From NCBI GenBank assembly GCA_017552325.1, contig JAFZQE010000044.1:1-53064 (forward strand): 53,064 nt of DNA, read 5' to 3'. Numbering within the stretch: position 1 is the first letter of the stretch; the number at the start of each line of letters is the position of its first letter. This DNA is from Oscillospiraceae bacterium. Lineage in GTDB: Bacteria > Bacillota > Clostridia > Oscillospirales > Oscillospiraceae. Made by a program: the position numbers and the translations under genes. The notes beneath the pieces were generated by a model, which was not told the DNA's origin, made no database searches, and saw only the letters and a program-made list of their open reading frames with translations. This document shows positions 24,919 to 42,424 of the stretch, in pieces.

Positions 24919-24964
24919 AAAAACGAAAAGAGAGGCATGCTTTCGCATGCCTCTCTTTTCGTTT
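24919..24964 (-). terminator. Terminator of the partner-switching operon
   Basis: A perfect 20-bp stem (24921-24940 with 24945-24964, TTTC loop) is followed on the minus strand by TT and ATCAG. It lies about 100 bases past the stop of the last operon gene and is the longest stem in the window. Confidence 0.85.
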
Positions 24965-25067: not shown

Positions 25068-25931
25068 TCATTTCAGCGGCGGAAGCTCGTGGATGTCGTA
25101 GGTGTCGTAGTAGATCTCGAAGGCTGTCTCCACATCGCCGGAGAGCTCGATCAGGGCTCCGGCCTGGAACATGGTGGAGAGCGTGCCGGAGGGCGCTTTC
25201 CACGCGGCGTTGGAGACCACGCTGATCGCGGGCTCCCCTTCCGGATTGTCGGCGCGCAGGATCGCCTCCGCGCCGAACAGGAGCGTACCGGTGGCGATGT
25301 GGTAGTCGCTGGAGACGATGACCAGCTCCTTCACCTGCGGATACCTCGCCTCCAGGATATCAAAGGTATAAATGGCGTTCTGCGCCGTGGTGAGGGATTT
25401 GTCCTCCACGATCACCCGCCCGGCGGCGACGCCGTTTTCGATCAGCCACTCCGCCATGCGCCCGGCCTCCGTGGCCGTCTCGTCCTCGGCCGCTGTGCCG
25501 CCGCCGGTGCAGACGATCAAGGCGTTCGGATACTTCTCCGCGCAGCGCTGCGCGACCGTCAGGCGTTCGACCAGCTCGTCGCGCATCGTGCCGTCCGGGG
25601 CAAGCTGAAAGCCCAGCACGACAAAGCACAGTTCGTCGGTATCCGTGAGGCCCTCCGGAAGCACGTCAACGTTGAGCTCAAGCTGCGAATTGGCCTTCCA
25701 CCACAGCATCATGATGCGGTCCCAGCGCGCGCCGAGATTCGGGTCCGTCTCCTTCAGCTCGCGCAGAAGCTCCTCCACCCGCTGATCGGCCTCGCCGCCG
25801 TAGCTGCCGTAGTCGACGACCATCTCCTCGATGATCTCCTGCGCGCCGCGCTTTTCGGCCTTTTGCCCGCAGCCTGCGCACAGAAGCAGCAAAAACAGAG
25901 GGATCAGGATGAAAACCGCTTTTCGTTTCAT
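25068..25931 (-). CDS. DUF218 (YdcF/SanA/ElyC-like) lipoprotein
   Basis: This 287-residue surface lipoprotein has the signal peptide MKRKAVFILIPLFLLLLCAG with lipobox Cys21. After a helical region (about 30-95) the DUF218 Rossmann-like domain has CFVVLGFQL, VCTGGGTAAEDETATEAGRM, a VEDKSLTTAQNA segment and IVSSDYHIAT. In other bacteria this family is linked to envelope integrity and vancomycin sensitivity, but its reaction is unproven. It lies 25 bases after the MATE-GHKL gene, so it is the last member of the long signalling operon and suggests an envelope-related output (inference). GAAGGA lies ahead of the ATG. Confidence 0.8.
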   Translation of the reverse strand: MKRKAVFILIPLFLLLLCAGCGQKAEKRGAQEIIEEMVVDYGSYGGEADQRVEELLRELKETDPNLGARWDRIMMLWWKANSQLELNVDVLPEGLTDTDELCFVVLGFQLAPDGTMRDELVERLTVAQRCAEKYPNALIVCTGGGTAAEDETATEAGRMAEWLIENGVAAGRVIVEDKSLTTAQNAIYTFDILEARYPQVKELVIVSSDYHIATGTLLFGAEAILRADNPEGEPAISVVSNAAWKAPSGTLSTMFQAGALIELSGDVETAFEIYYDTYDIHELPPLK

Positions 25932-25956
25932 AACCGGGCTTCCTTCTTTCCGATAT

Positions 25957-27729
25957 TCAAATGCTGATCGTCAGCACGTTGAGTCCGAGGATATTCTGGT
26001 ACTGCACGTCCCGCGCGATCTTGAAGACCATGCGGATCCCGATGTTCTTCGTGATATCGTCGCCCTCAGTGAGCTGCTGCCGCTCGCCCGGGTCAAAGGG
26101 CACGCAGTCGTCCTTGATGCGCAGGATCACGACGTCGTCCTTATGTACGACGCGCACGTCCACGGAATGGCTCTTTTTGTCCTTCCTGAAGCCGTGATCC
26201 ACGACGTTGCCAGCCATCTCCTCCATGGAGAGGCCGGCCAGATAGGCGCGCCGTGCATCGACTCCACGCGCCAGGCAGAAGGTCTGTACGCGCTCAGCGA
26301 CGGAGACGACGTCCTCCATGCTCCTGACGCTCAGATCCAGGCGTTCGTCGGCCCGGGCGCCAAAGTCGTCGGGGACGACCATCAGCTCGTCCATATTCCG
26401 CGGGAAGCGCTTCTTTTTGATCCAGGCGTAGCCGACGATAACAAGGGTCGTGACGACGCCGTTGAGGAAATTGGAAATGTAGACGCTGTTCATGCCGATA
26501 AAACGGATCAGCAGCGCCGTGAAACCGGCTACGCAGATCACGCCGTCCAGCGCCGCGAGCAGATAAACCAGGCCGGTCCTGCCGAAGCTCTGGCTGTAGG
26601 AAATGAAGTGCATGAGGATGATAGACAGCGGCATGCACAGGGGCAGAAGCCGCAGGCCCCAGACCGTCATCATATAGACGGGCTCGGCCGGGTCGCGGAA
26701 AAAGATCCGCGTCAGAGGCTCGGCGCAGAGGACGAGCAGCACGCAGATCGCGCCCATCAGCGGCAGGAAGCGCCGGAACATGACGCGCATGACGTCGGTC
26801 AGCGTCTGCCGGTCCTCCTCGCCGATGCTGACGGAAAACAGCAGACGGGAGACGGCCATCATGCCGACGGGCACGGACCAGAAGATGCTGAGCAGATTGT
26901 TGGCCGCCGCAAAGGCGGAGATGCCGACGCTTCCGACGAAGACGTCGAGCAGATAGTTGACGATAAAGCCGCGCAGCGTCTGGTAGCTGTTGGAGGCGGC
27001 GCCGGGCAGCCCTGTCTTGTAAAGCAGGAAGGCGTCTTTCCAGCGGAGCTTCTGCAGGCGGATCCGCAGATGCGTCTTTCCGGCGAGGAAAGGCTGGACC
27101 TCCACCGCGAGGAAGAACCACAGGCCCAGCGAAGAGGCCAGCGCAAGGCCGAAGGCCTCCATGTGCAGCAGCTGCACGAACAGGAAATTAAAGATGATGT
27201 TGGCGAGGATATAGATCAGGCTCGCGAACATGGTATGCCGGCTCTTGCTCTCGATCGAGAGGAAGGGGACGATGGCGTTGCCGAGCAACAGCGGGATCAG
27301 GCCGATTGCCTGGCCCAGCAGATAGCGGTTGAACAGCAGGCGCACCTTTTCGTCTCCGGTCAGGATACCCGTCAGGTCAAAAAGGCCGAAGAAAAGAAAA
27401 AGCACGGTCAGGACCGCGGCAAGCATCGGAGCAAGGAACAGCGCCAGCGAAAACACCCGCTGCAGATCGTCCTGCCGGTTCCGGCCCAGGTACTTCCCGC
27501 AGAGGATGACCGAACCGCCGACCATGATTAGGCTGACCGAGTTGAGGAACATGCTGATGGGGCTGTACAGACCGACGGCGCTCATCGCGTCGACGCCGAC
27601 ATAGTTGCTGGCAAAGTAGCTGGACACGATGCCGTTGACCGAGCCCACCGCCGCCAGAAAGATCTGGATCGGCAGCAGCCGGAACATCAGCCTCGTAACA
27701 ACTTTCGCATTTGCCTTCTGTTCGTTCAT
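25957..27729 (-). CDS. MATE-type transporter fused to C-terminal GHKL (RsbW-like) ATP-binding domain
   Basis: This 590-residue protein has about 12 transmembrane helices over residues 10-440 in MATE/PST style (YFASNYVGVDAMSAVGLYSP; GNAIVPFLSIESKSRHTMFA). Its cytoplasmic C-terminal domain runs from about 450 to 590. That domain carries an N-box AGLSMEEMAGNVVDHGF (Glu503/504, Asn508, His512), a G1-like IKDDCVPFDP and a G2-like NIGIRMVFKIARD, so it looks able to bind ATP. Normal MATE exporters are about 450 residues and lack this. Fusion to an anti-sigma-type kinase domain, beside a stand-alone RsbW-like kinase and STAS proteins, suggests that the transporter itself is the switch target. Exported substrate is unknown. 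Confidence 0.85.
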   Translation of the reverse strand: MNEQKANAKVVTRLMFRLLPIQIFLAAVGSVNGIVSSYFASNYVGVDAMSAVGLYSPISMFLNSVSLIMVGGSVILCGKYLGRNRQDDLQRVFSLALFLAPMLAAVLTVLFLFFGLFDLTGILTGDEKVRLLFNRYLLGQAIGLIPLLLGNAIVPFLSIESKSRHTMFASLIYILANIIFNFLFVQLLHMEAFGLALASSLGLWFFLAVEVQPFLAGKTHLRIRLQKLRWKDAFLLYKTGLPGAASNSYQTLRGFIVNYLLDVFVGSVGISAFAAANNLLSIFWSVPVGMMAVSRLLFSVSIGEEDRQTLTDVMRVMFRRFLPLMGAICVLLVLCAEPLTRIFFRDPAEPVYMMTVWGLRLLPLCMPLSIILMHFISYSQSFGRTGLVYLLAALDGVICVAGFTALLIRFIGMNSVYISNFLNGVVTTLVIVGYAWIKKKRFPRNMDELMVVPDDFGARADERLDLSVRSMEDVVSVAERVQTFCLARGVDARRAYLAGLSMEEMAGNVVDHGFRKDKKSHSVDVRVVHKDDVVILRIKDDCVPFDPGERQQLTEGDDITKNIGIRMVFKIARDVQYQNILGLNVLTISI

Positions 27730-27745
27730 ACGGCGTATTCCCCGT

Positions 27746-28168
27746 TTACAGCAGTTTTCTCAGCGTCAGAACATTCTCTCCGTCGCGGTACTCGTAGCTC
27801 ATCTCATCCACGAGCTTCTTGGTCATAAAGATGCCCAGGCCGCCGATCTCGCGCTCGTCGGCGCTCAGCGTCACGTCCGGGTCGCTGTTGGCCAGCGGGT
27901 CGTACGGGACGCCTTTGTCCCTGAAGGTGATCGCGGCCGCGGCCGGCGATCCGGAGAGAGTCACGGTAACGACGGCTTCGCCCGTGCCGGGAGCGTAAGC
28001 GTAGTGCGCGATGTTGATAAAGACCTCTTCGACGGCAACGCTCATCTGCATCTGCGTTTTCATCGAAGCGCCGCCAGCATCCAGGCACTCTTCCACAAAG
28101 CCCTGCACGGCTTCCAGATTGCCGGGCACGGCCAGACCCTTCCATTCATTCGTAATCGGTGTCAGCAT
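27746..28168 (-). CDS. RsbW/SpoIIAB-like serine kinase (ATP-binding anti-sigma-type protein)
   Basis: This 140-residue GHKL protein has all ATP-binding elements: N-box SVAVEEVFINIAHYAY (about 43-58, Asn52), G1 FRDKGVPYDPL, G2 GGLGIFMTKKLVDE and closing strands RDGENVLTLRKLL. In partner switching such proteins phosphorylate a STAS antagonist on Ser and hold a target (usually a sigma factor). It is the only stand-alone GHKL protein in this operon with intact catalytic motifs, so it is the best candidate kinase for the four STAS proteins. It lies 16 bases before the MATE-GHKL gene. Confidence 0.88.
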   Translation of the reverse strand: MLTPITNEWKGLAVPGNLEAVQGFVEECLDAGGASMKTQMQMSVAVEEVFINIAHYAYAPGTGEAVVTVTLSGSPAAAAITFRDKGVPYDPLANSDPDVTLSADEREIGGLGIFMTKKLVDEMSYEYRDGENVLTLRKLL

Positions 28169-28178
28169 AAGCGATCCC

Positions 28179-28673
28179 TCACCCGTTTCGTTGTTCTCTC
28201 ATGAGCTGTTCTTTCTTCTGTACGTCTTTCGCTTTCTGCACGATCTTTTCCTTCCAGTCGTCATCCTGGGCGTTGAGCTGATAGGTACTGAACCCGTATT
28301 CGCGCCCCCAGGAGCAGACCACGCTCTCGTCGTCCACATGCAGCGAGATGCGGTAGCGGTTCGGCATCTTCTGCGGCAGCGGCGTCCGGTTGCTGCGCTG
28401 TACCTCGCGCAGGTGGCGGTCGCCGTTGACGATCCCGTCGAGGCGCACGCCGTAGCATCGGAACAGCCGGCGGATGTACTTCTCCGTGCGGAAAGAAGAG
28501 GTATAGATCCACACCTCGTAGCCGAGCTCCTGCAGCTCGCGGATCAACGCCGGCGTCCCCAGCCGCAGCCGCTCCCTGAATATCAGACCGAGCGGGAACG
28601 GGAGCGCCGGCTCGGTTTTGTGCGTTTCCGGCGAGACGAACAGGACCTCGTCCAAATCAAAGGATACTCTCAT
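28179..28673 (-). CDS. HAD-like phosphatase, paralogue of the ParB-HAD C-terminal domain
   Basis: This 164-residue protein opens directly with HAD motif I, SFDLDEVLF (Asp6, Asp8), followed by WIYTSS (motif II, Thr58) and a late acidic motif HVDDES (Asp114/115). The cap is minimal. The stretch around TEKYIRRLFRCYGVRLDGIV and the C-terminal half align well with the C-terminal domain of the preceding ParB-HAD protein, so the two are duplicates. It overlaps that gene by 4 bases (ATGA), implying coupled translation. No close named family is recognised; a phosphoprotein or small-molecule phosphatase role is inference. Confidence 0.7.
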   Translation of the reverse strand: MRVSFDLDEVLFVSPETHKTEPALPFPLGLIFRERLRLGTPALIRELQELGYEVWIYTSSFRTEKYIRRLFRCYGVRLDGIVNGDRHLREVQRSNRTPLPQKMPNRYRISLHVDDESVVCSWGREYGFSTYQLNAQDDDWKEKIVQKAKDVQKKEQLMREQRNG

Positions 28674-29569
28674 GGCGTTTCGCTTTCCGGACTGCTATTT
28701 TCGATCTCTTCGATCGCGGCCATGACCTCCTTCGACCAGTCCGCGGCCTCGCCGCTGAGCTCGAATTCCCGGAAGTCTTTGCTGCCGCCGAAGATCTGCA
28801 GGACCATGCCGCTGTCGATGTGGACCGTGTAGCGGTATTTGTCCGTGATCAGCTTTTCGAGCTTCTTCCCGGCGTCTCCCGCCGCTTTGGCCCGTTTGCC
28901 GATCGCCGTCATGACGCCGTCGATCCCGACATGGTATTTGCGGAAATAGTTCCGGATGTAGTCCGTGGAATAGTATTTCGCGGAATACAGCCAGATATCG
29001 TAGCCGTTTTTGGCAAGGAAGTGGAACAGGGCCGGCACGCCGAGACGGATCCTCTCCGGGTAAAACCTGCTCCACGGGAAGGTCATGGCGCTTTCCAGCG
29101 GCCCTTCCTCCCGGAAGATCACCTCGTCGAGGTCGAGCGCCGCGCGCTTGGTGTGCCGGGAATTCTCGAGGATCTTCCTGACGTCCTCCTCATGCGTGAG
29201 GTTAACGATCCGGATCGGGATCTTCGGCTGCCCGATGCGCAGCGCGGCCGCCCAGCGGTGATGCCCGTTGATGATCCGGTATCCGTCCGGATGCGTCCGC
29301 TCGACGATGATCGGCTCATCGTCGTAATAATGGTCGGAGGTCTTGAGCGCGTTGACGAACATCTGCTGATACTCGGAGATGATCTTGTAGTTCGGGCCGA
29401 TCTTCGGCATGCAGAACTCGTCCTCCGGGTTCGGATGGAGATTGTCGCAGCGCGCCTGACGGGTCAGCAGACGGCGCAGGATCCCGGTCTTGACCGGGAA
29501 ATACACGCCCCTGCTGCTCTCCACCTCCTGCGCGAGATACTCGTCAAAAAGCGATTTGCTTCCTGCCAA
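28670..29569 (-). CDS. ParB/sulfiredoxin-like domain fused to HAD-like domain
   Basis: This 299-residue protein has an N-terminal region (about 55-130) with DEPIIVERTHPDGYRIINGH and the motif NGHHRWAAAL (101-110), the hallmark of the ParB/sulfiredoxin fold that includes nucleases and small phosphotransferases such as SerK. From 143 a HAD-like domain follows: ALDLDEVIF (Asp146, Asp148), DIWLYSAK (motif II) and HIDSGMV (250-256), where the second motif IV acid seen in the paralogue is replaced by Ser. There is no HTH, so a chromosome-segregation ParB role is unlikely. It lies three bases after the PP2C phosphatase gene. A kinase/phosphatase pair acting on a switch component is one possibility (inference). 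Confidence 0.7.
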   Translation of the reverse strand: MAGSKSLFDEYLAQEVESSRGVYFPVKTGILRRLLTRQARCDNLHPNPEDEFCMPKIGPNYKIISEYQQMFVNALKTSDHYYDDEPIIVERTHPDGYRIINGHHRWAAALRIGQPKIPIRIVNLTHEEDVRKILENSRHTKRAALDLDEVIFREEGPLESAMTFPWSRFYPERIRLGVPALFHFLAKNGYDIWLYSAKYYSTDYIRNYFRKYHVGIDGVMTAIGKRAKAAGDAGKKLEKLITDKYRYTVHIDSGMVLQIFGGSKDFREFELSGEAADWSKEVMAAIEEIENSSPESETP

Positions 29570-29572
29570 GGC

Positions 29573-31249
29573 TCAGTCTCCTTTCTTTCCGTTCCCGCGG
29601 TAGTCCAGGCAGAGCATCGTCAGATCGTCGAACTGCTCCGCGTCCCTGACGAAAGCGTCCACATGGCGGCGGACGTTTTTCAGGATCTGCTCGGGCGTTC
29701 CGTCCGCATCCTCGTTGAGCGCGGCAAGCATCCGTTCCGTTCCGAAGAGCCTGTTTTCCGCGTCGGTCGCCTCCGGCACGCCGTCCGTATAGAGAAAGAT
29801 CTTCTCCCCCGGATGCAACGAGAGCTCGTACTCCCGGTATTTTGCGCCGTCCATAGCGCCGATCACAAGACCGTGCTTGTCCTTGAGCAGCTCAAACCGC
29901 CCGTCGGGCTTTTTGAGCACCGGATACTCGTGCCCGGCGTTGGCCGCCGTCAGTTTTCCGGTGGAGATCTCCAGGATGCCCAGCCAGACCGTGACAAACA
30001 TCTGAGCTTCATTGTTCGAGCAGATGGCCTCGTTGGTCTTGTTCAGGATCTCTCCGGGAGATCTGCCCAGCATCGCGACGCTCTGCAGGATGATCTTGCA
30101 GACCATCATAAACAGCGCCGCGGGGATGCCCTTGCCGGACACGTCCGCCATCACCATGCACAGATGGTCCTCGTCGATCAAAAAGAAGTCATAGAAGTCT
30201 CCGCCGACTTCCTTGGCCGGGTCCATGGAGGCGAAAACGTCGAACTCCGTCCGATCCGGAAAGGGCGGAAAAACATGCGGAAGCATGGCCGCCTGAATGC
30301 GGGTCGCCAGGGACAGCTCCGCACCGATGCGTTCCTTCTCGGCAGTCACCGTCTTCAGATTGGTCATATAGGTCGAAACTCCGTCGGCAAGGCTCTTTAC
30401 GTTGTCCGCAAGCAGACGGAGCTCGCCGCTGGATCCTGCCGGCATGGTCACGTCTTCAAAGTCGAGCTCCTCCGGATCGGCGTTGTTCTGCATTTTCCGG
30501 ACGAAAGAGTCGCTGCTCTGCGTGAGCTTGACGATCGGCCCGGTCAGATAGCGATCGGTGTTGATAAGGTACACAAAAGCCACAAGCGCCGTCAGGACGG
30601 CGGCGATCAGCACGAGCGTGCGCAGATAGTGATGCAGGTCAATGTTGATCCGGTTGATGTCGATCTCGACACAGATCAGGCCGACCGCCTGATCCTCACT
30701 GTCGAAGATGACCCGGTAGCCGTTGAGCATATGCCCGTATTCCGAGGAGTTGCCGTCCAGCGTGCCGTTTTCGCGCATGCCGCTTCTGACCGCCTGCTGA
30801 AAGATGGTAAGCGTGTCGTCCTCAAAGCTTCCTTCCTCGCAGGGCCTTCCCATGTAGCTGTAGATCTCAGACAAAGGAGCGCCCGTGGACAGCTCCTCCT
30901 TTGTCTTTGCGTTGATCGCATAGTGGAGGCTGTGGATATCGTTGATATCCTCAAAATAGATCGCGTAGAGATACTCGATCCGGGAGGAGTCCTTGATCTC
31001 ATTAAGCTCGGAGCGGAATTCTTCATATCCTTCCGGCATTTCGCGCGAGGCGATCATATCGCCGAAAGCGTATTCTTCGCTCGCCCGGTATGCGTATTCC
31101 AGGACCGTTTCCGCATACGTGACATAGCTCTCCTTAACGCTGTCGTGATACAGTTTATAACCGACCACGGCAATGACAGCCGTGAGGACAACCATAAAGG
31201 TGATCGCCATGAGCGCCACTTTTGTTTTGATTTTCATTCCTTTTTTCAC
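29573..31249 (-). CDS. Membrane-bound PP2C (SpoIIE/RsbU-type) phosphatase with extracytoplasmic sensor and HAMP
   Basis: This 558-residue protein dephosphorylates STAS antagonists (family role). TM1 (about 10-31), an extracytoplasmic sensor region of about 175 residues (33-208), TM2 (211-229), HAMP and coiled-coil (232-310), then the PP2C domain: ATRIQAAMLPHVFPPF (316-331), EVGGDFYDFF (347-356, Asp351), MADVSGKGIPAALFM (367-381, Asp369), LYTDGVPEAT and FDDLTML near the end. All metal-binding Asp are present. It is the input of the switch: an external signal would activate dephosphorylation of one or more of the four STAS proteins. The start is GTG 31249; an in-frame ATG at 31237 is an alternative. 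Confidence 0.9.
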   Translation of the reverse strand: MKKGMKIKTKVALMAITFMVVLTAVIAVVGYKLYHDSVKESYVTYAETVLEYAYRASEEYAFGDMIASREMPEGYEEFRSELNEIKDSSRIEYLYAIYFEDINDIHSLHYAINAKTKEELSTGAPLSEIYSYMGRPCEEGSFEDDTLTIFQQAVRSGMRENGTLDGNSSEYGHMLNGYRVIFDSEDQAVGLICVEIDINRINIDLHHYLRTLVLIAAVLTALVAFVYLINTDRYLTGPIVKLTQSSDSFVRKMQNNADPEELDFEDVTMPAGSSGELRLLADNVKSLADGVSTYMTNLKTVTAEKERIGAELSLATRIQAAMLPHVFPPFPDRTEFDVFASMDPAKEVGGDFYDFFLIDEDHLCMVMADVSGKGIPAALFMMVCKIILQSVAMLGRSPGEILNKTNEAICSNNEAQMFVTVWLGILEISTGKLTAANAGHEYPVLKKPDGRFELLKDKHGLVIGAMDGAKYREYELSLHPGEKIFLYTDGVPEATDAENRLFGTERMLAALNEDADGTPEQILKNVRRHVDAFVRDAEQFDDLTMLCLDYRGNGKKGD

Positions 31250-31295
31250 GGCTCGTCATCCGTCCTTTTCGCGTTATTTTACCCCGTCTTCCTGC

Positions 31296-31592
31296 TTATT
31301 CGACAGTCAGGATCTCCGAAAAGCCCGTGACCTCGAAGATCTCCATGATGATCTCTCTCACGCGGACGAGCTTCATCCCGCCCTGCCGGTTCATGGTCTT
31401 CTGCGCGGAAAGCAGCACGCGCAGGCCGGCCGAGGAGATGTACTCCAGCCCGGCAAAGTCCAGCGTCAGCTCGCTCACGCCGGGGAGCGACTCCTTCAGC
31501 GTTTTTTCCAGCTCGGGAGCCGTGCTTGTGTCCAGTCTGCCCTCGAGGGCAAGGGTCAGTGCGCTTCCGTTTTCCGTTTTGCCTATCGTCAT
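31296..31592 (-). CDS. STAS-domain antagonist, copy D
   Basis: This 98-residue SpoIIAA/RsbV-like protein consists of a STAS domain only. YISSAGLRVLLSAQK places the phosphorylatable Ser at 54 (aligned with Ser58 of SpoIIAA). RLDTSTAPELEK is the family start motif. The usual Asp before the Ser is replaced by Ser53, as in all four copies here. It stands next to the PP2C gene and has no GHKL-like partner of its own after it, unlike copies A-C. It could be the copy that pairs with the intact RsbW-like kinase (inference). GAGGAGG lies ahead of the ATG. Confidence 0.9.
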   Translation of the reverse strand: MTIGKTENGSALTLALEGRLDTSTAPELEKTLKESLPGVSELTLDFAGLEYISSAGLRVLLSAQKTMNRQGGMKLVRVREIIMEIFEVTGFSEILTVE

Positions 31593-31605
31593 CGAAAGCT
31601 CCTCC

Positions 31606-32181
31606 TCATTCCAGGTTTCTGTATACGGTCATCTCCACTTCGCTGCCGCGGATGCTGACCTTGACGTCCTTGGCCAGGTGGGAGACCACGGATTTCTCCA
31701 GCTCGTCCCAGGCTTCCTCTGCGTCCGTTTTGTTCTGGCCGATGTACTGATGCAGCCGCTCCTGATAGGATCGCATGGACCATACCATATCGCCGTAAGA
31801 ACCGTCGGAGCTCGTGTCATAGAGGATCGGCAGACCCTCCGCCGGCTCAAAGAAGGCCCGCAGCTTTCCCATGAAGCCGCGCGTGGCTTCGTTTTTCCCG
31901 CTCGTCGACGCGGAAAGAAGCTGCCTGCGCTTATACTCGTCCATGAAGGTATTGCAGTGCAGGTGCAGTTCATACTCCTGTCCCTTGTTTTCGATCCAGA
32001 ACTGGCCGTCGACGTCTCCGGTGATGGCGCGCATCAGGCACATCATTTCCTCGGCCAGGAGGCGAAGATGCAGCGCGCCTTTGTGTGACAGCTTCTGCGT
32101 GAACGCCATCCGATCGGCCTGATCCAGCACCAGGTCGGTCCGGTCATCCTTGCTGGAGACCTTGATCACATCACTTTTCAT
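31606..32181 (-). CDS. Degenerate GHKL-like protein, copy C
   Basis: This 191-residue protein is a paralogue of the products ending at 32508 and 33387. It has the helix LRLLAEEMMCLMRAITGD, which corresponds to the GHKL N-box, but the Asn and His that coordinate Mg-ATP are absent (Leu and Ala there). No glycine-rich G1/G2 box follows; the middle is instead FWIENKGQEYELHLHCNT plus an acidic insert. The closing strands DVKVSIRGSEVEMTVYRNLE resemble RsbW C-terminal strands. I infer a non-catalytic anti-sigma-like partner for the adjacent STAS (copy C upstream or copy D downstream). It is the most diverged of the three. RBS is weak. Confidence 0.6.
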   Translation of the reverse strand: MKSDVIKVSSKDDRTDLVLDQADRMAFTQKLSHKGALHLRLLAEEMMCLMRAITGDVDGQFWIENKGQEYELHLHCNTFMDEYKRRQLLSASTSGKNEATRGFMGKLRAFFEPAEGLPILYDTSSDGSYGDMVWSMRSYQERLHQYIGQNKTDAEEAWDELEKSVVSHLAKDVKVSIRGSEVEMTVYRNLE

Positions 32182-32194
32182 GCCGCTATCTGTT

Positions 32195-32491
32195 TTATTC
32201 GATCGTCAGGATGTCCGAGAAACCCGTGACCTCAAAGATCTCCATCACGATCTCTCCCACATGGATGAGCTTCATGCTGCCCTGGCGGTTCATGGTCTTC
32301 TGCGCGGAAAGCAGCACGCGCAGACCGGCCGAGGAGATGTACTCCAGTCCGTCCAGATCCAGCGTCAGCTCGCTGACGCCGGGCAGAGAGCCCATCAGCA
32401 TCTTTTCCAGATCGGGCGCCGTGACCGTATCCAGACGGCCCTCCAGCGCGATCACAGCCGCCGTTCCGTCCTGCTTTTTGGTAATCGTCAT
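32195..32491 (-). CDS. STAS-domain antagonist, copy C
   Basis: This 98-residue STAS protein has start motif RLDTVTAPDLEK and phosphosite YISSAGLRVLLSAQK with Ser54. I use ATG 32491 (MTITKKQDG), which has GGGGAGG 8 bases upstream and matches the length of the other copies; the longer reading to 32515 would overlap the preceding gene. It differs from copies B and D mainly in the first 15 and the 30-50 regions, so each copy may have its own partner specificity. It precedes the GHKL-like gene copy C by 13 bases. Confidence 0.88.
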   Translation of the reverse strand: MTITKKQDGTAAVIALEGRLDTVTAPDLEKMLMGSLPGVSELTLDLDGLEYISSAGLRVLLSAQKTMNRQGSMKLIHVGEIVMEIFEVTGFSDILTIE

Positions 32492-32507
32492 ACCAGGATC
32501 CTCCCCG

Positions 32508-33041
32508 TCAGGCAAAGCTCTTGACGACCGTCATATCCACTACACCGCCGCGGATCGCGATCTTCACGTCGTCCGCCACACGGCGCAGGACCGAACGCTC
32601 GTAGTGATCCCACTCGGTGTCGTCGGGATGATAGTTCGGGATGTCCGCCGCGATCTCCGCCGGCAGCTCGTAATAGACGTGATCGGCCTCGGCGGTCATG
32701 GCCTCCTCGAACTTGTCGCGCAGCTTGCCCAGGAAGCTGTTGGCCGCTTCGTTCTTGCGGGAGGTGGCGGCGGAAAGGAGCTGATAGCGCTTGTCCTTGT
32801 CCATGGTGGTCTTGGTGTTCAGGTGAAGCTCAAAGGTCTTTCCCTCGCTCTCCAGCCAGAAGGACGCCGTCAGTTCGCCCGTAACGATGCGGGCCATGCT
32901 CAGCATTTCTTCCGTGCAGAGAGTCAGCTGCAGGGTCTCCTTGTGGCTCAGGCCGCGGAACGCCGCGACCTTTTCGGTCTGCTCCAGCGCCTCATCAAAG
33001 CCGACGCCCTGATTGTCAATGCGGATGATGTCAGATTTCAT
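32508..33041 (-). CDS. Degenerate GHKL-like protein, copy B
   Basis: This 177-residue protein is close to copy A in its first 110 residues (MKSDIIRIDNQG; LCTEEMLSMARIVTGE; FWLESEGKTFELHLNTKT; SRKNEAANSFLGKLRD) but differs in the 115-145 acidic stretch. N-box Asn and His are replaced (Met, Ile) and no G-box is found, so ATP binding is unlikely. The closing strands are DDVKIAIRGGVVDMTVVKSF. The conserved shell with a variable segment suggests an interaction surface tuned to one STAS. AAGGAGGAAG lies ahead of the ATG. The start of STAS copy C follows 16 bases after its stop. Confidence 0.62.
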   Translation of the reverse strand: MKSDIIRIDNQGVGFDEALEQTEKVAAFRGLSHKETLQLTLCTEEMLSMARIVTGELTASFWLESEGKTFELHLNTKTTMDKDKRYQLLSAATSRKNEAANSFLGKLRDKFEEAMTAEADHVYYELPAEIAADIPNYHPDDTEWDHYERSVLRRVADDVKIAIRGGVVDMTVVKSFA

Positions 33042-33071
33042 GTTTCTTCCTCCTTGTATTCAGCTTCCCGC

Positions 33072-33368
33072 TTACCCGATGGTCAGGATATCGGCAAAGC
33101 CGGTGACTTCGAAGATCTCCATGATGGTCTCGTTCACATGGACGAGCTTCATCGCGCCCTGCCGGTTCATGGTCTTCTGCGCGGAAAGCAGCACGCGCAG
33201 ACCGGCCGAGGAGATGTAATCAAGCCCGGCAAAGTCCAGCGTGAGTTCCTTCACGCCGTCCAGAGAAGCTTTCAGCTCCTTCTCCAGCTCCGGCGCGGTC
33301 ACGGTGTCCAGTCTGCCCGCCAGGGCGAGCTCGAGCGCGCTCTCGTTCTGTTTCTTGGAAATGGTCAT
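33072..33368 (-). CDS. STAS-domain antagonist, copy B
   Basis: This 98-residue STAS protein has RLDTVTAPELEKELKASLDG, DFAGLDYISSAG with phosphosite Ser54, and the shared C-terminus EIFEVTGFADILTIG. It is the second copy in transcription order, 18 bases after GHKL-like copy A and 30 bases before GHKL-like copy B. The pairing STAS-then-GHKL suggests each unit acts as a cognate pair. AGGAGGAC lies ahead of the ATG. Confidence 0.9.
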   Translation of the reverse strand: MTISKKQNESALELALAGRLDTVTAPELEKELKASLDGVKELTLDFAGLDYISSAGLRVLLSAQKTMNRQGAMKLVHVNETIMEIFEVTGFADILTIG

Positions 33369-33386
33369 TTCGGTGTCCTCCTTCTG

Positions 33387-33911
33387 TTATTCAAAGCTTT
33401 TGCTTACGGTCATATCCACCGTGCCGCCGCGGATGGCGATCTTCACATCGTCCGCCGCGCTGCGCAGGATCGACTGCTCATACTCGTCCCACTCGGGGAT
33501 CTCAATGGCGTGGTTTGCCAGATCGGGCAGCGCCTCATCCGGGATCTCGGAAATCGGATCGGAGACCATGGCGGCCTCGAAGGCGTCGCGGAGCCTGCCG
33601 AGGAAGCTGTTGGCCGCCTCGTTTTTGCGGGAGCTCGCGGAGGCGATCAGTCTCTCGCGCTTCTCTCTGTCCATGACGGTCTTCGTGCTCATGTGCAGAT
33701 CGAACTTCTTTCCTTCGCTCTCCAGCCAGAAGCTCGCCTGCATCTCTCCGGTCACGCTGCGCGCCAGGCTCAGCATTTCCTCCGTGCAGAGACGGAGCCG
33801 CAGTTCCTCCTTATGGTTCAGGCCTCTGAAGCTTGCTGCCTTTGCGGTCTGCTCCAGGGCTTCCTGGAAACCGTTGCCGCGGTTGTCGATGCGGATGATA
33901 TCAGATTTCAT
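33387..33911 (-). CDS. Degenerate GHKL-like protein, copy A
   Basis: This 174-residue protein is a paralogue of copies B and C. N-box-like helix LRLCTEEMLSLARSVTGE keeps the two Glu but has Leu and Ser where RsbW has Asn and His. FWLESEGKKFDLHMSTKT follows, then SRKNEAANSFLGRLRDAFEA, an acidic variable loop (DPISEIPDEALPDLANHAIE) and closing strands DDVKIAIRGGTVDMTVSKSF. The fold resembles RsbW but the ATP site is gone, so it is probably a binding-only anti-antagonist (inference). Automatic tools might call it an ATP-binding protein; I would treat that with caution. GGAGGAGC lies ahead of the ATG. Confidence 0.62.
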   Translation of the reverse strand: MKSDIIRIDNRGNGFQEALEQTAKAASFRGLNHKEELRLRLCTEEMLSLARSVTGEMQASFWLESEGKKFDLHMSTKTVMDREKRERLIASASSRKNEAANSFLGRLRDAFEAAMVSDPISEIPDEALPDLANHAIEIPEWDEYEQSILRSAADDVKIAIRGGTVDMTVSKSFE

Positions 33912-33950
33912 GATGCTCCTCCTGTCAATAATTGCTTTCGTAATTCCGAT

Positions 33951-34250
33951 TCACTCGACGGTCAGGATGTCCGAGAAGCCGGTGACCTCGAAGATCTCCG
34001 CGATGGTCTCGTTTACATGGACGATCTTCATCTCTCCCTGGCGGTTCATGATCTTCTGGGCGGACAGCAGCACGCGCAGGCCGGCCGAGGAGATGTACTC
34101 CAGCCCGGCGAAGTCCAGCGTCAGCTCGCTCAGGCCGGGAAACGACTCCTTCAGCGCCTTCTCCAGCTCCGGCGCGGTCGTGGTATCCAGGCGGCCCTCC
34201 AGCGCGAAAAGCGCTTTCCCGTTTTCGATGCTTTTGTTGATGTTCAGCAT
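33951..34250 (-). CDS. STAS-domain antagonist, copy A
   Basis: This 99-residue STAS protein is one residue longer at the N-terminus than the other copies. It has RLDTTTAPELEKALKESFPG and phosphosite EYISSAGLRVLLSAQK with Ser55. It lies 43 bases after the FtsX permease gene, the largest gap inside the operon, and no separate promoter is evident there. AGGAGGAAAAC lies ahead of the ATG. Family role: it binds an anti-sigma-type GHKL protein when unphosphorylated and releases that protein's target. Confidence 0.9.
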   Translation of the reverse strand: MLNINKSIENGKALFALEGRLDTTTAPELEKALKESFPGLSELTLDFAGLEYISSAGLRVLLSAQKIMNRQGEMKIVHVNETIAEIFEVTGFSDILTVE

Positions 34251-34293
34251 GGTGTTTTCCTCCTGTATGTTTATTATTTTATCATTTTTCAGT

Positions 34294-37200
34294 TCAGACG
34301 ACGTCCGTCAGCTTCAGGTTTTTGACCGGACGAAGCGCAATGATATTGACGAGCACGGTGAACAGCACCGTCAGCGCGGCGCCTGTGATCCATGCCATCG
34401 CGCTCGGCTCTTTCACGACCTGCAGGAAAGGCTGCTCCATCGAAAGGCAGATCCTGCGCCCGATCCCGGAACCGACGAACATGCCGATAATGATGCCCAG
34501 CGCCGTCGTGATCACAGTCTCCCGCAGCATATAGCCGACGACTTCCTTCACGGTGAAGCCGTTGACGCGCATGATGGTCAGTTCGCGCTTTTTCTGCAGC
34601 ACGTAGATATTCGTCAGATTCATCAGCACCACGCCTGCCATAACAGCCGCCATGAAGATGAACAGCATCACAAGCGAATCGATCACGCTCGTTGACGCGT
34701 CGAATACCGCCCTGCCGGACTCGGCGGTGGCCAGACCGGCAAAGCCCTCCACGTCGCGAAGCGCTTTGTCCAGCGCGTCGGCATCAGCCCCGTTCAGGCG
34801 CACAAAGAACGCGTTGATCTCGCTTTTCTCTCCGAATACCTGTTCGTAATAAGACGGGCTGATGACCATGGGGCGGCCTATGTAATGGTCGAACACCCCG
34901 GCGACGACCACATCCGCCGTTTTGACTCCGCCGAGGGCGATCTGAAATGTGCTGCCCGGAGCGAGATGATAGTATTCCGCCACACGGAGCTGAATCAAGA
35001 TCCCCTCGTCGGTATTCGTGACCGGCTCGGCGGTCTTCCAGTCGCGCAGATGGTACAGCTTTCCGATCTCCTCCGCGTCGCCGCAGAAGAGCTCGGCGGT
35101 CTGGATGTCTCCGAAACGGTAAGTGATGTTGGCAATGGACAGCGGCGTATATTCCGTTCCCGCTTCATTCAGCAGCGTTTCGATCTCATCCCTGGCCGTT
35201 TCCGACTTCCCGGGGTTGAAGGTCACACGCCAGTCATACTCTTCGATATCGACATACTGCCTGTCCAGCGAGCCGTTCATGGCGGCCTTGAGCGTCATGC
35301 CGATCACGACCAGCGCGCAGCAGCCCGCCACGCTCACGATCGTCACAAGCACGCGCTTGATATCCGTGCGCATGTTCAGCAGGATCAGGCGCGAGTAGAG
35401 AGACAGCGCGGAGCCTTTGCCCTTCTTCTCTTTTTTCGCGCTGGTCGGCACCTTCGCCTGCAGCAGCCGGATAGCGGGCGTCCGAAGCAGACGCGAGCAG
35501 GCGGCCCATACCGCAACCACGGCCAGCCCTGCGGCGGCGAGCAGCACGATGACGGTCGGCAGCACGGTGATCCCCGGCCGCATGAGACTGAATGTATAAT
35601 AGATGTTATAGCCCTTCAGGACGATGCCTTCCATGGCGAAGCGAGCCACCAGCACGCCGATGACCGCTCCCAGCAGGGCGGCGGAAACACCGAAGCTCAG
35701 GTACTTGCGGAAAATCTCTCTGTTGAAGAAGCCCAGCGCCTTGGTAGTCCCGACCTGTGTGCGCTGTTCGTCCACCATTTTGCTGACGGTGGCAAAGATC
35801 ACCAGCGCGCCGACCAGCACAAACAGCAACGCGAAAGTGCTCTCCAGGCTTTTCAGGTTATCTCCGGCCATTCTAAGCTGCACATAACCGGGATTGCCTT
35901 TCATATTCAGAACAATCCACCGGCAGGGCGTCGTATCGTCGAGCTTACCGCGCGCCTCTTCGAGCTGATTCTCGCCGTCGGCGATCGCAATCATCGCGTC
36001 CTGATAGGAGGTCTCGCCCTCTTCCAGCTGCTTTCGGCCGTCCTCCAGCTCCTTTCGGCCGGCTTCCGCGTCGGCCAGCCCCTGCTCATAATTTGCTTTG
36101 GCTTCCTCGTACCGGGTCTTTCCTTCCTCGTACTCCGCCTTTCCTTCCTCCAGCAGCGCCAGGCCGACCTGATAGTCGTTCAGACCCTTGTTGTATTCGT
36201 CCTGACCTGCCTGATATTCTTTCGCCCCTTCGTTGTAGGCGTTCAGTCCCTCGATATATTTCGCATGACCCTCGTCCCACTGCCGGCAGCCGGACTGAAG
36301 GGCCGCATAATCGCTCTCATACGCCGCTGACTGCTGAACGGCCGCCGCAGCGACCAAGGACCTCATCATGTTCGCGTCGAAGCCCTCTTCGGTACCCATG
36401 GCGCTCACATAGGCTTCCTTCAGCATCTCGTCCGTGATGTTGTCGGAATAAACAAAAGCCCTGATGTTTTCTTCCAGAGTGAGGTTCAGATCACAGTAGT
36501 AGGTCGTTGTGATCCAGAAGTACATGGCCGTCGCATTCGGGTCGTCCACATTGGCGGGCATTTTCCGCGCCCACGCGATCGATCCCGAGGTATCGCCGAC
36601 CTGCTCCTCCAGCGCGCCGCGGACGCCGTCGCGGATCTGCGCCTTGCCGTTCTCCAGCTCGTTCCATCCGGATTCGAGCTCCGCTTTTCCTTCGTCGAGC
36701 TGTTCCCCGGCGGTGGCAAGCTCCTCGTAGCCCGCGTCAAGCTTTTTCTTGGCGCGCCAGAGCTCAACTCTCGCCTGCTCCAGCTTGTTCTCCGAGTCCT
36801 CGATCTCCTTCTGCGCGTCATCCAGCTCTTTCTGCGCGTCGTCCAGCTGTTTTTCGGCGTCCTCCAGCTCCTGCTGTCCCTCGGCCAGCTCCCGCTCGCC
36901 GTCGGCGAGCTCCTTCCAGCCCTCGTCCAGCTCGATCCGGGCGTCGGCAAGATCGCTCTTCGCCTGCTCCAGCTCCTGCTGCTTTTCGTCGATCAGAGCC
37001 AGAGCCTGTTCGTGAACGTCTGCGTCACGGCGGGCGGCGGCAGTCGGTGCGAGCGCCTCCAGGCGCTCCTGTACGGCGGTGAGCGCCGCGTTGTATTCTT
37101 CGCCGTAGCGGTCCGGGTTCTCCGGTTTTTCTATCGCCACCTCCGCCTTCATGAAGCAGCCGTCCAGCGCTTCCATGTCAAAGGCGTCGACCGTCAGCAG

Positions 37201-37764
37201 AACATCATAGGTATCGGCAACCATCGTGTTGCTGTTGTCGGCATGGTTGGCGATCCCCGTAACGGTAAAGCGGTTGCCGCGCAGATACTGCACGGTTTCG
37301 CCGTTGTCGTCGTTCACCCGGATCTCGCTGCCTACCTCCAGGCCCAGTTCCTCGGCCAGATTGCGCTCCACGGCACATTCTGTCTCCGTCTCCGGAAGAC
37401 GTCCCTCCAGAAGCAGCGGCTGATTGAGCCGCTCTGTCAGCGAGACCGCGTTCGCGTCCACGCTGTCGCCGCCGGTCGACGCCTTGACGCCGACCTGCCA
37501 CACGGGCTCGACGTCAGCGACGCCCTCGGTGCCCCGGATTTCCTCAAGGTCTTCCTGGGAAAAGAGAAGCGTGGACACCAGTTCGATATCGCGGAAATTC
37601 TGCGTATTGAAGTAGTCCGATCCGTTTCTCGTGAGAATGACGGAAGAGTAGTTCAGCCCGAGGAAGATCGACACGCCGAGCACGGCGATGACAATGATCG
37701 AAATAAAGGACACCTTGTTTCGGGCGATGTTCCGAAGAAGGTCCTTAAGCTGTGTTCTCTTCAT
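34294..37764 (-). CDS. FtsX-type ABC permease with two long coiled-coil arms
   Basis: This 1156-residue membrane protein pairs with the GAF-ABC ATPase (6-base gap). TM1 is at about 18-37, followed by a MacB-type periplasmic-like domain (50-235), coiled coil 1 (about 250-388; repeats such as ELEDAEKQLDDAQKELDD), a globular insert (395-480), coiled coil 2 (about 490-610; repeats EYQAGQDEYNKGLNDYQVG) and then two FtsX blocks. The first has helices from about 644, and the second lies at the C-terminus with IDSLVMLFIFMAAVMAGVVL, LGIIIGMFVGSGIG and a last helix. These mechanotransmission permeases move no substrate through the membrane; they pull on or deliver envelope molecules. Coiled-coil DNA is repetitive. 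Target unknown. Confidence 0.88.
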   Translation of the reverse strand: MKRTQLKDLLRNIARNKVSFISIIVIAVLGVSIFLGLNYSSVILTRNGSDYFNTQNFRDIELVSTLLFSQEDLEEIRGTEGVADVEPVWQVGVKASTGGDSVDANAVSLTERLNQPLLLEGRLPETETECAVERNLAEELGLEVGSEIRVNDDNGETVQYLRGNRFTVTGIANHADNSNTMVADTYDVLLTVDAFDMEALDGCFMKAEVAIEKPENPDRYGEEYNAALTAVQERLEALAPTAAARRDADVHEQALALIDEKQQELEQAKSDLADARIELDEGWKELADGERELAEGQQELEDAEKQLDDAQKELDDAQKEIEDSENKLEQARVELWRAKKKLDAGYEELATAGEQLDEGKAELESGWNELENGKAQIRDGVRGALEEQVGDTSGSIAWARKMPANVDDPNATAMYFWITTTYYCDLNLTLEENIRAFVYSDNITDEMLKEAYVSAMGTEEGFDANMMRSLVAAAAVQQSAAYESDYAALQSGCRQWDEGHAKYIEGLNAYNEGAKEYQAGQDEYNKGLNDYQVGLALLEEGKAEYEEGKTRYEEAKANYEQGLADAEAGRKELEDGRKQLEEGETSYQDAMIAIADGENQLEEARGKLDDTTPCRWIVLNMKGNPGYVQLRMAGDNLKSLESTFALLFVLVGALVIFATVSKMVDEQRTQVGTTKALGFFNREIFRKYLSFGVSAALLGAVIGVLVARFAMEGIVLKGYNIYYTFSLMRPGITVLPTVIVLLAAAGLAVVAVWAACSRLLRTPAIRLLQAKVPTSAKKEKKGKGSALSLYSRLILLNMRTDIKRVLVTIVSVAGCCALVVIGMTLKAAMNGSLDRQYVDIEEYDWRVTFNPGKSETARDEIETLLNEAGTEYTPLSIANITYRFGDIQTAELFCGDAEEIGKLYHLRDWKTAEPVTNTDEGILIQLRVAEYYHLAPGSTFQIALGGVKTADVVVAGVFDHYIGRPMVISPSYYEQVFGEKSEINAFFVRLNGADADALDKALRDVEGFAGLATAESGRAVFDASTSVIDSLVMLFIFMAAVMAGVVLMNLTNIYVLQKKRELTIMRVNGFTVKEVVGYMLRETVITTALGIIIGMFVGSGIGRRICLSMEQPFLQVVKEPSAMAWITGAALTVLFTVLVNIIALRPVKNLKLTDVV

Positions 37765-37770
37765 CGGCGC

Positions 37771-38991
37771 TCACCAGACCAGCTCTTCCGCGTGAACGGG
37801 GTGCATGTTCTTCTTGATGGAGGCGATTTTGCCGTTTCTCACCTTCACCACACGGTCGGCCATCCTGGCGATCTCCGGGTTGTGGGTGACCATCATCACG
37901 GTGGCGCCCTGGTTCCTTACGATGCCCTCAATGACTGAGAGCACCTCGATGCTGGTCGAATAGTCCAGCGCCGCGGTCGGCTCGTCGGCCAGGATCAGCT
38001 TGGGCTTCTTGACGATGGCGCGGGCGATGGACACGCGCTGCTGCTGACCGCCGGACATCTGCCCGGGGTAGTTGTTCGCGCGGGACGTGAGGCCGACCTT
38101 TTCGATCGCCTCCTCCGCGTCCATGGGATCGTCCACCAGCTCCGCGATGAACTGCACGTTTTCCAGCGCCGTCAGGTTCGGCATCAGGTTGTAGGCCTGG
38201 AAGATGAAGCCCACGGTCTCGCGCCGGAATCTGGTCAGCGCATCGTCGGAGGGATGGGAAAAGTCCACGCCCTCGATGGTAAGCGTGCCGTCCGTGAGGA
38301 AATCCATGCCGCCGATGATGTTCATCATCGTGCTCTTGCCGCAGCCGGATTCTCCCAGCACCACGACGAATTCGTTCTTGTATATTTCCAGGTTGACGCC
38401 CTTGAGCACCTGCAGCACGGTGTCGCCCGTCTGAAACTCCTTGGTGACGTCCCGGAGCACCGCGAGAACTTCCTTTTTCTCGCCCAGGTCGACGAGCAGG
38501 CCCTTTTCATCGATGGTGATGGCGGCCAGCGAGGCCATGCGCTCGCAGAGCTGCAGCTCCTCGGCGTCGTAAAGCGTGCCGTCCTTTTTGTTGACGACCT
38601 GCACGCAGCCGATGATATCATGGAGATTGTTCAGCGGCACGCAGATCATCGTCTTGGTCGTCAGCCCGTTGTCGTCGAAGACCGTGCCGTCGAAGCGCGG
38701 GTCGTTCGCCGCATCCTCCACGATGACGGATTTCCCCGTTTTGGTAACGATGCCCTCGAGCCCCAGGCCGTTCTCCACCGTGATGTTGGAGATGTCGGCC
38801 GGGCCGATGTGGAACAGGGGGCTCAGCCGGTCGGTCTTCGGATCGAGGAACCAGATCGCTCCCGCCTCGCTGTTGAGAGTCCTGACAATGGTCTCCAGGC
38901 TGCCGGACAGCGCGTCCTCGAGACTGTCCACCTCAAGCAGCTGCTCCATGATCTGCCAGGTCGCTTTGGCAAAACGCTTTTCTTCCGCCAT
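37771..38991 (-). CDS. GAF-domain/ABC transporter ATPase fusion
   Basis: This 406-residue protein starts at ATG 38991 (AAGGAGAG upstream). Residues about 20-165 are a GAF sensor domain (SEAGAIWFLDPKTDRLSPLF; GLEGIVTKTGKSVIVEDAAN; CVPLNNLHDIIGCVQVVNKK), and about 175-395 a MacB/LolD-type ABC ATPase: Walker A GESGCGKST (213-221), Q-loop FIFQAYN, signature MSGGQQQR (312-319), Walker B LILADEPTAALD (332-343) and H-loop His370. All catalytic residues are present. GAF domains bind small ligands such as cyclic nucleotides, so ATPase activity may be gated by an intracellular signal, which is rare in this transporter class. It is the first gene of the partner-switching operon. Confidence 0.88.
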   Translation of the reverse strand: MAEEKRFAKATWQIMEQLLEVDSLEDALSGSLETIVRTLNSEAGAIWFLDPKTDRLSPLFHIGPADISNITVENGLGLEGIVTKTGKSVIVEDAANDPRFDGTVFDDNGLTTKTMICVPLNNLHDIIGCVQVVNKKDGTLYDAEELQLCERMASLAAITIDEKGLLVDLGEKKEVLAVLRDVTKEFQTGDTVLQVLKGVNLEIYKNEFVVVLGESGCGKSTMMNIIGGMDFLTDGTLTIEGVDFSHPSDDALTRFRRETVGFIFQAYNLMPNLTALENVQFIAELVDDPMDAEEAIEKVGLTSRANNYPGQMSGGQQQRVSIARAIVKKPKLILADEPTAALDYSTSIEVLSVIEGIVRNQGATVMMVTHNPEIARMADRVVKVRNGKIASIKKNMHPVHAEELVW

Positions 38992-39057
38992 TTTCTCGTT
39001 CTCTCCTTCTGCGTTCTGATGTGTGTTCTTTCCGCACATTTATATTCAGTTTATCAT

Positions 39058-39086
39058 ATCATATCATGCGTTCATACGCAACTCAA
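39058..39086 (-). promoter_or_regulatory. Promoter of the partner-switching operon with spacer dyad
   Basis: Minus strand TTGAGT (39086-39081), a 17-base spacer and TATGAT (39063-39058), about 67 bases ahead of the GAF-ABC start. The spacer holds a perfect dyad TGCGT-4-ACGCA (39067-39080), a candidate operator. Confidence 0.65.
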
Positions 39087-40667: not shown

Positions 40668-40678
40668 GCTTCGTCCTC

Positions 40679-41776: not shown

Positions 41777-41779
41777 GAT

Positions 41780-42421: not shown

Positions 42422-42424
42422 CGC

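Follow-up and report, generated by a model that had tools for sequence, protein, structure and literature searches.

The closest described relatives of the locus analysed here are the partner-switching systems RsbU-RsbV-RsbW and SpoIIE-SpoIIAA-SpoIIAB. Common to both systems and our locus are a PP2C phosphatase, a single-domain STAS protein with a conserved serine (Ser) and a GHKL serine kinase with intact boxes. The locus is a cluster of 15 genes on a contig of 53,064 nucleotides (JAFZQE010000044.1; in the following called the window) from the Oscillospiraceae assembly GCA_017552325.1 (2.09 Mb in 83 contigs, 75% complete). It encodes a SpoIIE-type PP2C, STAS proteins with a presumably phosphorylatable Ser and a kinase with N-box, G1 and G2. 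In contrast to RsbUVW and SpoIIA, the cluster lacks a co-encoded sigma factor and has four STAS proteins, three degenerate GHKL proteins and a GHKL domain carried by a MATE transporter. In agreement with an earlier note on this DNA, neither phmmer with 14 query open reading frames (ORFs; the longest ORF of each of 14 sigma regions, of which about four appear to be in the wrong frame) nor Pfam searches of the 15 cluster proteins detected a sigma factor in the window. We use K for the GHKL-like partner of STAS, and L and G numbers for the loci or regions read and for genomes, respectively. Our data support that a module of STAS, K, PP2C, RsbW-like kinase and MATE-GHKL recurs across genera, families and orders of Clostridia, partly beside or fused to transporters.

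Other described systems share single elements with the cluster. The stressosome (RsbR/RsbS/RsbT) contains RsbR-type STAS proteins with an N-terminal sensor domain, and in CapK-CapS the STAS protein carries a winged helix-turn-helix (HTH) DNA-binding domain; the window STAS proteins are all single-domain and have neither. In VapK-VapS-VapC, which combines a GHKL kinase with a STAS protein, VapS without a phosphomimetic change holds VapC directly (EMBO J 2026, PMC13373217). The outputs of VapKSC and CapK-CapS given in the parts of that article considered here are an RNase toxin or a DNA-binding repressor; the statement of the earlier note that known partner-switching loci end in a sigma factor or a DNA-binding output thus does not hold for VapKSC. 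Our cluster resembles these systems in its GHKL kinase, STAS proteins and presumed non-sigma output, but the same parts of the article mention no membrane PP2C or transporter. MlaB of MlaFEDB is a STAS protein that binds the ABC ATPase, more weakly when the equivalent site carries a phosphomimetic change (excerpt of PMC7367683). It is an example of a STAS protein that influences a transporter by binding to it directly. MlaB differs in binding the ABC ATPase itself, with phosphorylation not shown in that excerpt, whereas the receivers in our cluster would be GHKL-type domains. None of the 15 cluster proteins matched MlaE or MCE in Pfam, and the adjacent permease is of the FtsX/MacB type. For SypE-SypA, BtrU-V-W, RbaV-W and HmpU-V-W, either no target of STAS is known or there is no proof that the target is a sigma factor; unlike for our cluster, no transporter-fused GHKL domain is mentioned in the considered parts of the source (PMC8256260). 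Titles and abstract openings of the open-licence literature revealed no description of STAS/PP2C modules combined with MATE-GHKL, with MscS-K or with the K family.

The switch proteins of the window are complete by motif. The PP2C displays the motifs EVGGDFYD, DVSGKG, YTDGV and DDLTM, which we take to be catalytic. Its hydrophobic segments at residues 11-29 and 205-223, which flank an apparently extracytoplasmic region, suggest that it is probably a membrane sensor phosphatase; a weak third segment (370-388) lies within the catalytic domain. STAS1-4 are 98-106 amino acids (aa) long, all contain an SSAG motif and gave no HTH match in Pfam at E 0.1. All 85 sequences of the STAS set (85/85) retain this Ser, and the four are the only STAS proteins found in their own, 75% complete, genome. 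The RsbW-like kinase has the boxes EEVFINIA (N-box), DKGVP and GGLGI. An alignment of 106 MATE-GHKL fusions showed conservation of the EE pair in 105, of the N-box asparagine (Asn) in 98 and of the G1 aspartate (Asp) in 100 sequences, with the G1 glycine (Gly) replaced by cysteine (Cys) in 94; the G2 loop of the window fusion is NIGI, compared with GGLGI. A PDB sequence search with RsbW and the MATE GHKL domain revealed no match.

K1-K3 gave no Pfam match at E 0.1, K1 and K3 no NCBIfam match at 0.01, and a PDB sequence search with K found nothing at E 1; 16 K proteins searched against Pfam at E 10 matched four families with one member each (best 0.087). Comparison of a profile of 61 K sequences with other profiles revealed MATE-GHKL with a probability of 81.9 (score 38.8) and RsbW with 68.9 (score 34.6), against at most 13.7 for six unrelated profiles and at most 17.0 for 60 column shuffles. 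A profile of 40 K sequences reached probabilities of 67.1 (MATE-GHKL) and 50.6 (RsbW). The broken copy in L010 was omitted from one K alignment. Methionine, leucine, isoleucine or phenylalanine replaces the N-box Asn in 40 of 40 K sequences and the EE pair is kept in 40 of 40. Judged by profile comparison, K is a remote, degenerate GHKL protein, and because the N-box Asn is lost, its probable role is that of a docking or adaptor domain rather than that of a kinase. The STAS/GHKL-like pairs of the earlier note are upheld in this form, by profile-profile comparison and not by any Pfam match. In a genome of the window's own genus (G109), an MscS-type channel of 1310 aa (L011:9492-13421) has a C-terminal K domain.

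K also occurs in other architectures. In five loci (L018, L020, L021, L130, L132) it is fused to a glyoxalase-like VOC domain with STAS adjoining; L018, L020, L130 and L132 lie near ABC transporter genes, L021 instead adjoins MATE-GHKL. Three loci of one genus, which includes Butyrivibrio hungatei, contain ORFs of about 400-410 aa with tandem K domains beside STAS (L224, L226, L228).

Searches of three overlapping genome draws, each including the genome of the window, detected K in 14/200 genomes at the family level, 28/295 at the order level and 25/291 at the class level. Sixty K loci were analysed. Forty come from the family and the order and span 29 genera in 12 families; the other 20 are regions of 20 genomes elsewhere in the class, made up of 19 new picks out of 24 genomes plus one other choice of locus. 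G340, whose match falls into two pieces, was left out of the order set and G487, G702 and G734 out of the class set; G077 corresponds to L016 and G240 to an earlier locus, and one of the further K loci of G497 and G647 was read additionally. As a control we used 19 arbitrary regions from 14 K genomes of family and order, with L164 (3.5 kb) omitted from the centred control. Within 5 kb of K on either strand, STAS was found in 50/60, PP2C in 31/60, RsbW in 34/60 and all three in 28/60 loci, while each of them was found in 0/19 arbitrary regions. A frequent order is K-STAS-PP2C followed by a STAS-APH-RsbW fusion, in which APH is an aminoglycoside/choline-kinase-like phosphotransferase domain; DUF218 comes next in L134, L136 and L143, and loci of this order contain MATE-GHKL (L135, L137) or a plain MATE (L143). 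A locus from another order of the class (L221) displayed MATE-GHKL-K-STAS-PP2C-RsbW, its GHKL part being recognised by an in-house profile and not by Pfam at 1e-5. The neighbourhood comparison across Clostridia proposed in the earlier note thus revealed STAS/K/PP2C/RsbW, with or without MATE-GHKL, in different genera and orders.

The nearest relative's operon was found in a goat-reticulum Oscillospiraceae metagenome-assembled genome (MAG; L044, JAFSJZ010000096.1). It has the order of the window, namely STAS-K-STAS-K-STAS, PP2C, SerK/ParB-HAD, HAD, RsbW, MATE-GHKL and DUF218, with two extra small genes. Individual comparisons with the window proteins showed 87% identity for PP2C, 79% for SerK/ParB-HAD, 79% for HAD, 62% for RsbW, 71% for MATE-GHKL and 78% for DUF218. 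The first K of L044 is 71% identical to K1 and the second 77% to K3; together with the 67-68% identity of K1 and K2, this points to one additional STAS-K duplication in the line of the window.

The link to transport was analysed from both sides. The GHKL part of MATE-GHKL matched in 46 of 200 family genomes, including that of the window, mostly in frames of about 580-640 aa. In a scan of named genomes, the best 80 of 124 relatives came mostly from ruminant-gut Clostridia, and also from Erysipelotrichaceae, Treponema, other Spirochaetes and an Olsenella MAG. One hundred MATE-GHKL rows represent 99 distinct loci (L023 is identical to L051); the 20 family regions among them contain the best-scoring rows of the family scan. 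Either PP2C or STAS is encoded on the same strand and no more than 5 kb away in 29/100 rows (28/99 distinct loci), and 12 of 41 named loci flanked by 4 kb or more on each side have one of them nearby, compared with 0/20 plain MATE loci picked from the best-matching rows (p=0.002 against 29/100). Conversely, 20/60 K loci have a recognised transporter on the strand of K and no more than 5 kb away, against 1/19 arbitrary regions, for which both strands were counted (p=0.012). The transporters near K comprise MATE-GHKL, plain MATE, ABC exporters, amino-acid-type ABC importers, one FtsX and the MscS fusion; reading and Pfam added FeoAB beside STAS-K (L225) and an MFS transporter beside K-STAS (L222). 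The cultured Butyrivibrio hungatei DSM 14810 (G497, identified by exact identity of the L227 and L081 stretches) contains MATE-GHKL adjoining PP2C, STAS-K beside FeoAB and a K-K/STAS pair.

MAGs from other phyla also contain MATE-GHKL, namely Treponema and other Spirochaetes (L112, L116, L118, L120) and Olsenella (L109); neither PP2C nor STAS was detected in its vicinity there. These occurrences may reflect horizontal spread or binning errors.

We tentatively read the conserved part of the operon as a partner-switching relay with membrane transport as its output, to which we give slightly less than an even chance. From sequence we infer the entire chain, from signal through phosphorylation and STAS docking to gating and the substrate carried. 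The membrane PP2C would sense an extracellular signal and dephosphorylate the single-domain STAS proteins. The RsbW-like kinase would phosphorylate STAS on the second Ser of SSAG, by analogy with SpoIIAA. Unphosphorylated STAS would dock on GHKL-type receivers, that is the C-terminal GHKL domain of MATE and the degenerate K, and docking would alter transporter activity post-translationally. Somewhat more doubtful is the wider proposal that GHKL and K domains fused to or beside MATE, MscS, ABC, Feo and MFS transporters are STAS receivers throughout, through which the phosphatase/kinase pair may gate transport in Clostridia within seconds and without transcription.

Several observations weigh against transport as the output. 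PP2C and STAS were absent within 5 kb on the same strand from 71/100 MATE-GHKL rows, and 40/60 K loci have no profile-recognised transporter within 5 kb. The proposal that the natural output is the transporter itself, made in the earlier note, therefore stands as a sound hypothesis and not as a rule. The arbitrary-region control is small and lacks any ABC ATPase over its 307 kb, an unusually low number, so the transporter enrichment near K may be overstated; inspection of the control by sequence content, profile and motif search revealed no fault, and it was kept. The FeoAB and MFS additions have no matched control. The homology between K and GHKL spans only about 83 of 202 columns, and a K-RsbW profile comparison with small alignments gave a probability of 2. 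Finally, the genome of the window, only 75% complete, has one SigB/F/G-type sigma factor over the cut-off (C76:57656). Sigma-like matches were seen at up to 5 kb from K in a single locus of the 40 from family and order (L126, two matches, both in frames of unusual length) and at up to 5 kb from MATE-GHKL in 4/100 rows (L027, L113, L119, L121).

The last points bear on a classic switch acting in trans, in which RsbW holds an unlinked sigma factor that is freed by STAS, and the transporter genes are mere neighbours or targets. RsbW, STAS and PP2C are complete by motif, and a SigB/F/G model detected sequences over the cut-off in 14 of 20 genomes searched (18 of them K genomes). Among the six remaining, G004 and G174, both not K genomes, fell just below the cut-off and G376 gave a partial match; G109, G250 and G265, each about 95% complete, possess K but gave no match to SigB/F/G above the curated cut-off, their best match (E of about 1e-40) lying in an RpoD-like frame of 380-414 aa. 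G250 and G265 contain the K-STAS-PP2C module with the STAS-APH-RsbW fusion (L125, L128), and G109 has, besides MscS-K, a MATE-GHKL beside PP2C. With no sigma factor detected in the window and L126 alone among the 40 family and order loci showing matches near K, and with the GHKL-type fusions to MATE and MscS left unexplained, we regard a sigma factor in trans as unlikely, though a serious alternative. The transporter could instead be the input of the switch, MATE-GHKL being a STAS kinase that reports transport or substrate to an output elsewhere. The mostly retained EE, N-box Asn and G1 Asp of the fusions fit this idea, and the MscS-K fusion could equally be a sensor. The G1 Gly to Cys change and the NIGI loop argue against it, as do a separate intact RsbW within the same operon and the loss of the N-box Asn in K, which makes a normal kinase unlikely; we consider this explanation unlikely, slightly more so than a sigma factor in trans.

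That the operon merely unites unrelated transport and signalling genes under one promoter, without joint function, is in our view improbable for the cluster as a whole. It would account for the many MATE-GHKL genes that stand alone and for the upstream GAF-ABC/FtsX pair, but not for the repeated association of STAS, K, PP2C and RsbW, with or without MATE-GHKL, in different orders of Clostridia, against controls near zero, nor for the fusions. For the ABC/FtsX pair alone it is likely to be right. The GAF part of the ABC protein matched in 9 of 200 family genomes including that of the window, closely in G181 (74%), G196 (42%) and G174 (56%, at a contig edge) and weakly in five. In G181 and G196 (L149, L150) a complete close homologue is accompanied by an FtsX permease, and the 20 and 18.7 kb analysed there contain no partner-switching genes; L044 has no such pair in the 2.9 kb read upstream of its operon. 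Because the pair is missing directly upstream in L044 and occurs without partner-switching genes in L149 and L150, it is most likely a separable neighbour sharing the promoter. The linkage of two transport systems in one unit, as the earlier note had proposed, was rejected on these three loci.

The two genes between PP2C and RsbW encode proteins with HAD domains, which cross-match each other: the HAD protein of L044 matches ParB-HAD at 31%. The N-terminal part of ParB-HAD scored 26.0 bits with Pfam ParB_N, just under the cut-off of 26.3, and both parB_part (3.5e-7) and SerK (1.4e-6) in NCBIfam. Among solved structures the free serine kinase SerK (5x0j, E 5.5e-4) was the best match, ahead of a ParB-family protein (7bnr, E 0.011), and a plain DNA-binding ParB was rejected for this protein. 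Of the domain assignments made in the earlier note, Pfam confirmed GAF-ABC, FtsX, four STAS, PP2C, RsbW, MATE-GHKL and DUF218; the second HAD is weak (0.026), and ParB-HAD is nearer to SerK. SerK/ParB-HAD and HAD genes take the place of APH in the window, L044, L073 and L211, the last by an in-house profile only. SerK and APH are both, we assume, small-molecule kinase folds, and the exchange of one for the other is an unexplained parallel. STAS-APH-GHKL and STAS-APH fusions were observed beside PP2C, K or MATE-GHKL (L024:14350-15942, L113:7525-8733, L134, L136 and others). A sigma-like gene shortly downstream of MATE-GHKL was seen in L113:12879-13508, L119:12908-13507 and L121:5908-6462, in L113 and L119 right after DUF218.

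The 15 ORFs of the cluster all lie on the minus strand (39039-25068) with intergenic gaps of -8 to 46 bases, so that the tightly packed gene run described before is confirmed, with every named gene as an ORF; the single transcript of the earlier note is putative. The promoter proposed upstream of the run was found again as an extended -10 promoter-like site. A consensus scan detected no minus-strand promoter-like site within the cluster, and the six minus-strand terminator-like matches there all lie in coding sequence; a promoter and terminator splitting the cluster internally, which the earlier note had named as a possible refutation, were thus not seen. The proposed terminator at 24964 corresponds to a hairpin visible by eye but not listed by the scan, which detected 21 terminator-like matches region-wide on both strands, with 13.6 expected (sd 3.7). 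The coordinates of all features are given in the table. The upstream neighbours (39282-45069) are genes of hexuronate catabolism, encoding uxaC, a PfkB-type kinase, KDPG aldolase, a member of the mannitol dehydrogenase family and uxuA, and the downstream neighbours are a HAD/GH65 pair; neither flank shows a visible link to the cluster. PADLOC models compared with 9 of the 15 cluster proteins matched only the ATPase part of the ABC ATPase (three models, best 5.4e-31), and a known anti-phage defence system was rejected for these nine proteins.

Table. Features of the gene cluster and its borders in the window (JAFZQE010000044.1)
Feature	Position	Strand	Evidence or remark
Terminator-like hairpin behind uxaC, 14 pairs	39173-39142		scan
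Extended -10 promoter-like site, sigma-70-type	39058..39086	-	consensus scan, 9/12; downstream of uxaC hairpin
GAF-ABC ATPase, start perhaps 38991	37771..39039	-	Pfam GAF_2 1.2e-14, ABC_tran 3.9e-34
FtsX/MacB-type permease, long coiled coil, 1156 aa, 8 hydrophobic segments	34294..37764	-	Pfam FtsX 2e-23, MacB_PCD 2.3e-12
STAS1, single-domain, anti-anti-sigma-like, YISSAGL motif	33951..34250	-	Pfam STAS 5.3e-15
K1, degenerate GHKL-like	33387..33911	-	no Pfam match; profile-profile comparison
STAS2	33072..33368	-	Pfam STAS 8.6e-17
K2, identity to K1 67-68%	32508..33041	-	
STAS3	32195..32515	-	Pfam STAS 8.6e-15
K3, 77% identity with second K of L044	31606..32181	-	
STAS4	31296..31592	-	Pfam STAS 6.3e-15
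Membrane PP2C/SpoIIE phosphatase, 558 aa	29573..31249	-	Pfam SpoIIE 2.8e-52
SerK/ParB-fold domain (GHHR motif) with HAD domain	28670..29569	-	5x0j E 5.5e-4; 79% identity in L044
HAD-type protein, akin to the HAD half of SerK/ParB-HAD	28179..28673	-	weak Pfam Hydrolase 0.026
RsbW-like serine kinase, N-box/G1/G2 intact	27746..28168	-	Pfam HATPase_c_2 7.2e-22
MATE transporter with C-terminal GHKL domain (472-588)	25957..27729	-	Pfam MatE 3.3e-22, HATPase_c_2 3.9e-10
DUF218 protein, probably lipoprotein	25068..25931	-	Pfam DUF218 2.5e-18; lipobox-like LCAGC by eye
Putative terminator, 20-pair hairpin after last gene	24921..24964	-	by eye; absent from scan list

Several partner-switching sets have unknown targets (PMC8256260), and the question of what they control is still open. 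The transporter-fused GHKL domains and the MscS-K fusion described here are concrete candidate targets of partner switching. As the cultured Butyrivibrio hungatei DSM 14810 carries both STAS-K/FeoAB and MATE-GHKL/PP2C, this question can be addressed by experiment in a cultured strain.

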